The notes under the pieces: generated by a model
Told to the model about the DNA's origin: nothing
The model's input: only the letters and a program-made list of their open reading frames with translations
Database searches by the model: none
Position numbers and translations under genes: made by a program
Assembly: GCF_019599185.1 (NCBI RefSeq)
Contig: NZ_JAIEUL010000012.1
Span: 1 to 64,000, forward strand
DNA: 64,000 nt
DNA from: Cryobacterium inferilacus
Lineage (GTDB): Bacteria; Actinomycetota; Actinomycetes; Actinomycetales; Microbacteriaceae
Direction of reading: 5' to 3'
In this document: positions 10,061 through 11,855 of the stretch, one piece after another
Position numbering within the stretch: the stretch's first letter is position 1
Layout: the number at the start of each line of letters is the position of its first letter

Positions 10061-11035
10061 CTAGAAGTCCCAGTCGTCGTCTTCGGTGTTGACAGCCTTG
10101 CCGATGACGTACGAGGAGCCAGACCCGGAGAAGAAGTCGTGGTTCTCGTCGGCGTTCGGCGACAGCGCCGAGAGGATCGCCGGGTTCACGTCGGTGACGG
10201 CCTTGGGGAACATCGGCTCGTAGCCGAGGTTCATCAGGGCCTTGTTGGCGTTGTAGTGCAGGAACTTCTTGACGTCTTCGGTCAGACCGACCTCGTCGTA
10301 GAGGTCCTGCGTGTACTGGATCTCGTTCTCGTAGAGCTCGAACATGAGATTGAAGGTGTAATCCTTGATCTCATCGCGACGCTCCTGGGTCTCCTTCTCG
10401 AGGCCCTTCTGGAACTTGTAGCCGATGTAGTAGCCGTGCACGGCTTCATCCCGGATGATGAGACGGATGAGGTCGGCCGTGTTGGTGAGCTTGGCGCGGC
10501 TGGACCAGTACATCGGCAGGTAGAAGCCGGAGTAGAACAGGAACGACTCGAGCAGGGTCGAGGCGACCTTGCGCTTGAGCGGGTCGTCGCCCTGGTAGTA
10601 GTCCATCACGATGGACGCCTTCTTCTGCAGGTTGACGTTCTCGGTCGACCAGCGGAACGCCTCGTCGATCTCCTTCGTCGAGCACAGGGTCGAGAAGATC
10701 GACGAGTAGCTCTTGGCGTGCACGGACTCCATGAACGCGATGTTCGTGTAGACGGCCTCTTCGTGCGGGGTGATCGCATCCGGGATCAGCGACACGGCGC
10801 CGACGGTGCCCTGGATGGTGTCCAGCAGAGTCAGACCGGTGAACACGCGCATGGTGAGCTGCTGCTCCACCGGCGTGAGGGTGTTCCAGGACTGCACGTC
10901 GTTGGAGAGCGGGATCTTCTCTGGCAGCCAGAAGTTGTTGACGAGGCGGTTCCAGACCTCGACGTCCTTCTCGTCTTCGATCTTGTTCCAGTTGATCGCG
11001 TCAACGTGGGAGACGAGCTTGAGCTTGTCAATCAT
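10061..11035 (-). CDS. nrdF: Ribonucleotide reductase class Ib, small (radical) subunit NrdF
   Basis: A 324-residue R2-type subunit that carries the tyrosyl radical for dNTP synthesis. Metal-site motifs are visible: [14 protein letters not shown] (Glu and His ligands with the radical Tyr) and [11 protein letters not shown]. The C-terminus ends in acidic residues and DDDWDF, the tail that docks to NrdE. It is the last gene of nrdHIEF, but an endonuclease gene separates it from nrdE and overlaps its first 8 bases. Its ribosome binding site (AAGAGGAAA, 6-14 bases upstream) lies inside the end of the endonuclease gene. Confidence 0.97.
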
Positions 11036-11855
11036 GAATTTTTCCTCTTGGTGATACGTCGTTGATCGAGCTTGTCGAGATCTGAGCCGAGTCTTCGACG
11101 CAGTACTTACATTCGGGCTTCAACACGCCCCTGTTGGTGTGATACCGGGTATGAGCACTGCGCTTACTCTTCGGCTGCGGAATGCCTTTGGTTGCGGCCG
11201 ATAGTTTTGCAATGGTCTCAGCACTGGTTGTCTTGCCGAAATTCGGATTCAGCGGACCTCGACGCTTGGCCGCCAGAATAAGCTTCGCCTCGTCCGACAT
11301 CGTATGGCCGAAGCCAGGGTGATCTGATCCAAACTTACCGAAGTTGGGGTTGTCTGCACCTGTATAAGTGCCCTTCCGAGATTCGCGCCAACGGGCCTTC
11401 TGCTCGTCAGAGTGGGTCTGACCAAACATCGGATTGTCCGCTCCATAGCGCGGTGGTATCGAGCGACCTGTAGAGCGTACTCGTGCGGCCTCCCGCTGCT
11501 CTTTCGACCACTCAATCCCGGTCGGCCCCAGTCCCCCTTCCGAGAGATTGAGAAGTCTGTCACCCTGTGCCCTCAGTTTCGCTATCCACAACACCTCAGC
11601 CTTACCGAGGTCGTCCAGAGTGCTAGTAACCACCTGAAGCGACTGCACATAGACGAATTCGGTAGGCGCTTTGCGCAGCCAGTCATAAAACGGGTTGCGA
11701 ACGCCCATCTCAGCTTTCCGCCTGTGCTGTTGCATTCGCCGGCGAATGCTGGCGGTCGTGAGCCCGACGTAGCGGAACTCCGAAGATGTCTCGAGTCGGA
11801 CGCCATAAATGACACCGATGATACTTCCCGGAAGCGGCGACCTCGCCAGGCTCAC
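11028..11855 (-). CDS. Free-standing GIY-YIG homing-type endonuclease with NUMOD3 repeats
   Basis: A 275-residue protein. A GIY-YIG nuclease domain covers about residues 13-105, with Tyr17 in GVIYGV, YVG at 29-31, catalytic Arg in SIRRRMQQH, Glu87 in [11 protein letters not shown], and Asn103 in LLNLSEGG. Three or four NUMOD3-type DNA-binding repeats follow ([24 protein letters not shown]). The C-terminus has a possible zinc finger, H235-H239 with C249/C252 (PECKYC). It starts with GTG behind AAGGAAAGG. The gene sits between nrdE and nrdF, overlaps the nrdF start by 8 bases, and looks lower in GC than its neighbours, so it is probably a mobile insertion. Residues 259-265 are encoded by a repeat shared with 5284-5666. 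Confidence 0.92.
11060..11084. repeat. 25-bp copy of the 5.3-kb tandem repeat end module (inverted)
   Basis: These bases are the exact reverse complement of the end module of the array at 5284-5666, for example 5338-5362. Here the module is inside the endonuclease coding region and encodes its residues ISTSSIN near the C-terminus. It lies only 25 bases upstream of the nrdF start. Confidence 0.9.

Follow-up and report, generated by a model that had tools for sequence, protein, structure and literature searches.

Free-standing homing endonuclease genes have been documented mainly in phages. The described system closest to the locus presented here is mobE of phage T4, a free-standing gene for an HNH endonuclease in the nrdA/nrdB region. 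In one review (PMC2988022), mobE is a promoter-less gene between the large- and small-subunit genes of a class Ia ribonucleotide reductase, which overlaps the upstream nrdA and shows a stop/start codon overlap called suggestive of translational coupling; its listed activity is on nrdB, and co-conversion of flanking sequence is treated there as well. The same review covers the seg endonucleases of T4 and I-TevI, both of which join a GIY-YIG nuclease to modular DNA-binding parts, the seg genes lying at other phage sites and I-TevI being encoded in an intron. PMC10448857, PMC3984707 and PMC3653736 describe introns in nrdE and nrdF as well as homing genes in the vicinity of nrd genes in phages. 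The group I introns of nrdE and nrdF, some of them chromosomal, are homing elements drawn to class Ib genes, although as presented in two of these papers (PMC3984707, PMC3653736) they lie inside coding sequence and splice.

The gene analysed here, which we term HEN, resembles mobE in being free-standing and promoter-less, in its place between the two subunit genes and in its stop/start overlap, and resembles the seg endonucleases and I-TevI in its nuclease and modular DNA-binding parts. Unlike mobE, it is a GIY-YIG/NUMOD3 gene, lies in a chromosome among class Ib genes and overlaps the downstream nrdF; unlike the introns, it splits no gene; and unlike the seg proteins and I-TevI, it belongs to a family with a conserved HxxxH-CxxC cluster at the C-terminus. 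The kind of element is thus already known from T4 mobE, and what is new is a probable homing gene that is chromosomal, recurrent at one site and overlaps nrdF. Our search of the open-access literature, with most subscription papers and bioRxiv outside its scope, found no report of a chromosomal HEN at an nrdE-nrdF junction.

The window, a stretch of 64,000 nucleotides from a Cryobacterium-type genome, carries an nrdHIEF operon on its minus strand, in the order nrdH (14588..14821; nrdH-like, with a Pfam match to the glutaredoxin family), nrdI (14043..14525; Pfam match), nrdE for the class Ib ribonucleotide reductase alpha subunit (11902..14061), HEN (11028..11855; 275 codons with a GTG start) and nrdF for the beta subunit (10061..11035), with nrdE and nrdF each matched by both Pfam and NCBIfam. 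An earlier note on this DNA had described a free-standing GIY-YIG/NUMOD3 gene between nrdE and nrdF that ends 8 bases inside the latter; its position and type are borne out by the open reading frame and by Pfam and NCBIfam matches, and the overlap of the HEN stop with the nrdF start occupies 11028..11035. The lower GC that the note had ascribed to the gene was confirmed when GC and GC3 were computed, with 56.5% for HEN compared to 66.9 for the window, 62.6 for nrdE and 59.5 for nrdF, and with a GC3 of 62.5 that is the lowest among 44 crude window genes at least 200 aa long (median 88.8). A further claim, that HEN supplies the DNA before nrdF, holds insofar as the HEN frame covers this DNA, but not all of it is foreign: the 41 bases at 11041..11081, which form late codons of HEN, recur without a mismatch in the nrdE-nrdF spacer of the HEN-lacking congener G400, and contain one arm of a REP-like palindrome together with the nrdF ribosome-binding site. 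This identity indicates that the end of the HEN frame runs through spacer of the host type, in which the likely ribosome-binding site of nrdF also lies (AAGAGGA, 11043..11049; the motif is present in several empty spacers as well). The spacer between nrdE and HEN measures 46 bases (11856..11901), the first 17 of which are the same as in the empty spacers of congeners G432 and G410, and AAGGAAAGG stands ahead of the HEN start at 11863-11871. The HEN protein has one match within its own genome.

NUMOD3 (PF07460) matched the HEN protein at an E of 1.2e-13, with 51.1 bits above a cut-off of 20.4, in two stretches; the better-scoring one spans residues 183-219 of the repeat region (11199..11309, minus strand) and would be expected to contact DNA. 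The GIY-YIG nuclease domain, at about residues 12-103 (11547..11822, minus strand), was matched by PF01541 over residues 15-92 at an E of 2.4e-4, its 21.8 bits being just below the Pfam cut-off of 22.6. Four homologues scored 18.5-22.1 with the same model, and the homologue from Arthrobacter phage Talia1610 was unlisted at E 0.1. Residues Y17, Y29, R40, H44, E87 and N103 are invariant across 16 aligned homologues, one of which comes from a phage, and we take all of these except H44 to be catalytic positions by analogy with I-TevI. Invariant in the same 16 sequences is a C-terminal H-x3-H-x9-C-x2-C cluster (H235, H239, C249 and C252; 11100..11153, minus strand), which is possibly zinc-binding. 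In PHROGs, HEN matched phage homing endonuclease families (best E 1.3e-16), while its sole PDB sequence match at E 0.1 was a weak one to I-TevI chain 1i3j (E 0.0084), which falls in another part of the repeat region than residues 183-219.

Protein-query searches at E 1e-5, in overlapping genome sets and with the window counted where applicable, matched 5/398 genomes of the family, 12/396 of the order, a single one of 396 in the phylum (the window itself) and 4/57 of the window's genus (g1). One of these last four, G399, is a distant match elsewhere, and HEN occupies the nrdE-nrdF junction in 3/57 genomes of g1, the window included. With a 16-row HEN profile, used for the class and for genera g79 and g90, matches were obtained in 4/296 class genomes, in 11/60 genomes of g79 (10 with a close homologue) and in 18/121 of g90 (17 with a close homologue). 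Close homologues are present in 37 distinct genomes (three in g1, 10 in g79, 17 in g90 and seven others) from nine genera and five families of the order. When NrdE and NrdF were compared with the loci by tblastn, all 37 chromosomal copies fell between nrdE and nrdF; in 35 of them, the stop codon of HEN overlaps a start of nrdF that is in frame. The exceptions are G648, where nrdF starts 16 bases after the stop, and G467, whose HEN is interrupted by a stop codon at the GIY tyrosine. Beyond these 37, Cellulomonas chitinilytica NBRC 110799 has a further HEN between nrdE and nrdF, and in the window's genus the junction sequence of Cryobacterium sp. PH31-AA6 (L006) is the same as that of congener G438.

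Other matches fall outside this pattern. The G399 match is not at nrd (35% identity) and belongs to a 523-aa protein (L040:979-2550, minus strand) in which a YqaJ-like recombinase domain is joined to a GIY-YIG domain. Those in G1467 (L157) and G1552 (L174) are distant or partial, with NrdE and NrdF absent from the fetched flanks by tblastn. An origin from plasmids was rejected, the matches being seven Bacillus records that cover 53% of the query at 30.7% identity, and in IMG/VR four loci were matched with best-segment identities of 27-31%. In G1363, of the same class and another family, a decayed, frameshifted HEN fragment lies directly behind nrdE (L081:1371-1818), and none of the ORFs in the flank retrieved for this locus is nrdF. 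The position of this remnant hints at an insertion determinant at the nrdE 3' end.

Near relatives of the window provide the empty form of the junction, which supports the earlier note's reading of a homing-type gene. NrdF of G432 and of G401 is identical to that of the window over 324 residues, and that of G410 has one difference in 324, yet all three junctions are empty, with spacers of 63, 97 and 63 bases, respectively. The note had regarded carriage by all relatives, with matching phylogeny and codon use, as evidence against its reading; carriage is instead patchy among congeners, many of which are empty. In an rpoB phylogeny that includes 21 of the 57 genomes of the genus, and in which several supports are moderate, carriers G000, G423 and G438 are not sisters. 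The spacer allele of G400 bears a REP-like palindrome, as do 14/27 empty spacers fetched from this genus (those of G432, G410 and G429 being without), and its fold has a z of -4.6 compared to +1.8 for the occupied end in the window. In g90, a GC-rich inverted repeat (ACGACGGCGGG...CCCGCCGTCGT) was found by pattern match in 22/25 empty spacers (L119-L147) and in 0/17 occupied ones; a 23rd empty spacer, L129, carries a variant of it. One such empty spacer folds at -38.5 kcal/mol (z -5.4), and the repeat might set the NrdE:NrdF ratio as a terminator, an attenuator or an mRNA end.

A relative of HEN occupies the same junction in a phage. The 194-kb genome of Arthrobacter phage Talia1610 has the order nrdH-nrdI-nrdE-GIY-YIG-nrdF, whereas nothing is inserted between nrdE and nrdF in its sister phages Mimi, Racecar and Atuin. 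The inserted gene 111, annotated as a G-I-Y Y-I-G endonuclease, shares with HEN the junction, the GIY-YIG-type residues, NUMOD3 repeats, the C-terminal HxxxH-CxxC cluster and the nrdF overlap, but is only 31.5% identical to it. Talia1610 (with the insert) and its sisters have the nrdHIEF order, which according to PMC3653736 was not observed in the phages covered there. Beside the insert, Talia1610 diverges more strongly from its two closest sisters. In bins of 60 bases, nrdE of Talia1610 and Mimi is 95-100% identical apart from the three bins adjoining the insert, which have 92, 72 and 83% and in which Mimi and Racecar share 98-100% of their bases; nrdF starts at 88, 88 and 92% before reaching 95-100%. 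A second dip at 600-840 bases makes the nrdF side of this comparison weak when taken alone. The divergence of the flanks looks like what flank co-conversion would leave. HEN matched 41 phage records, and among the four neighbourhoods examined (Talia1610, GMA2, Sixama and GodonK) the nrdE-HEN-nrdF order occurs in Talia1610 only. In Gordonia phage GodonK (L086), a more distant GIY-YIG/NUMOD3 relative has a DNA polymerase gene on one side and nrdF on the other, and is missing at that place from the sister phage Phendrix (L087).

We compared flanks also among chromosomes, drawing empties from the 30 loci fetched per genus. In g90 (7 of the 17 carriers and 23 empties, the long, aberrant spacers L130 and L147 being excluded), carriers lose 9.8 points of identity to their nearest empty relative over the final 60 nrdE bases and 7.2 points over the first 60 of nrdF, while empty-empty pairs lose 3.9 and gain 2.2 points, respectively (p of 0.003 on the nrdE side and 5e-5 on the nrdF side). 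No such footprint was found in 8 of the 10 g79 carriers (p 0.53 and 0.47) or in the three carriers of the window's genus (p 0.50 and 0.36). In both of these genera, the low identity of carriers to empties in the last 60 nrdE bases is matched by empty-empty pairs, indicating that the nrdE end is variable anyway. The opening codons of nrdF differ between carriers and empties by synonymous changes, codons 4-5 being AAA-GTA or AAA-GTG in 17/17 g90 carriers, AAG-GTC in 24 of 25 empties listed and AAG-CTC in the remaining one. A 23-base nrdF start haplotype is present in 6/17 g90 carriers (5 of the 7 in the flank subset) and in 0/25 empties. Hitchhiking with the insert would explain these differences at the nrdF start, the alternative being selection on the overlapped start.

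In our assessment HEN is very probably a free-standing GIY-YIG/NUMOD3 homing endonuclease gene resident in a bacterial chromosome, as judged from its nuclease core, repeats, fixed address, empty sites, phage relative, purifying selection, decay and tree conflict. Missing from close relatives but found, as related genes, at one spot in scattered other actinobacteria and in a phage, it has the look of a selfish gene that has moved among them. We counted against this reading the GIY-YIG score below cut-off, the grouping by family, the flank-like dS, the footprints absent from g79 and g1, the low identity of the phage relative, and the nrdE-HEN-nrdF order in just one of four phage neighbourhoods. 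The grouping, the dS and the absent footprints also favour a different history, in which HEN would be an old, mainly vertical homing gene, lost many times and no longer moving between hosts. Most HENs cluster by host family in the HEN tree; dS between G000 and G423 is 0.152 for HEN, alike to the 0.117 of nrdF and 0.125 of nrdE; and HEN dS tracks nrd dS within two genera (correlations of 0.69 and 0.56). The family grouping and the G000-G423 dS near that of flanking genes point to old residence and not to a recent sweep. A purely vertical course is nevertheless at odds with the conflict of the HEN and NrdE/F trees: neither data set accepts the topology of the other (p-AU 6e-4 for HEN data on the NrdE+F topology and 6e-7 for the converse), in a test that compared two topologies with a long phage branch and to whose outcome recombination inside HEN may contribute. 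It is also at odds with the pair G1597-G1530, where HEN dS is 0.298 (nrdE 0.261, nrdF 0.342) against a g90 median of 1.19 (nrdE 0.28, nrdF 0.40), with the G801 HEN (L044), which seems a mosaic of G280-like ends and a G315-like middle, with the phage copy and its divergent flanks, and with the presence of HEN in so few genomes of the order. We consider a history of descent and loss without movement to be unlikely, if still worth reckoning with. Strong present mobility is opposed by the family grouping, the flank-like dS and the lack of a footprint in the window's genus; we read HEN as a long-standing, patchily distributed resident that has undergone limited exchange and some decay.

Purifying selection on HEN (dN/dS 0.18 for G000-G423, with medians of 0.10 within g90 and 0.17 within g79) and the recurrent overlap with an in-frame nrdF start could also be expected of a domesticated host or defence nuclease, kept for regulating nrdF or for cutting the nrdE-nrdF genes of incoming phages. 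Possible targets exist in actinophages with nrdF, at least Talia1610 and its sisters having the whole class Ib set; however, the very patchy presence of HEN and its decayed copies make domestication quite improbable. A match to TIGR01453 (group I intron endonuclease), with 47 bits below the cut-off of 56.05, could be read as a sign that HEN belongs to an intein or a group I intron within nrdE or nrdF. Against this, an Rfam search of 9800-15400 gave no match at E up to 1, and nrdE and nrdF match their family models full length and uninterrupted; the intact flanking genes refute this very remote idea. The low GC3, finally, might be taken for the mark of a spurious or dead reading frame, an explanation with next to no credibility that is refuted by the conservation of the frame and its dN/dS, by the invariant catalytic-type residues and by the recurrence of the gene at the same place in 37 genomes.

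As a homing endonuclease, the HEN protein would recognise conserved sequence at the 3' end of nrdE, the 5' end of nrdF or both, and cut insert-free alleles, into which the gene would be copied during repair, and transfer might be aided by phages or DNA uptake. HEN is preceded, behind nrdE, by a probable ribosome-binding site of its own, and its end coincides with the start codon of nrdF; translation of nrdF may thereby be coupled to it, and the NrdE:NrdF ratio may be changed. We put forward with considerable reserve, as a rather doubtful extension, that translational coupling entrenches HEN in an essential operon, and that HEN may gain value by cutting phage nrdE-nrdF genes. An uncoupled, often hairpin-bearing nrdE-nrdF spacer would here be replaced by an open frame ending on the nrdF start, such that ribosomes translating HEN would deliver NrdF and early HEN-killing mutations would also penalise nrdF. 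If true, this would account for a selfish gene having been kept under purifying selection in chromosomes for so long. One HEN family holds a single nrd address in nine genera of one order, with a relative there in an actinophage. Occupied, empty and decayed alleles together offer a natural series for following passage between phage and chromosome and persistence in cells, and the recurrent nrdF-start overlap points to a concrete, testable way by which a selfish gene might tie itself to an essential one.

Elsewhere in the window, at 5290-5663, we observed four REP-like copies (TCTCGACAAGCTCGA and CGAGCCTGTCGAG) spaced about 100 bases apart, a 15-mer of which recurs at 11066, in the HEN tail.
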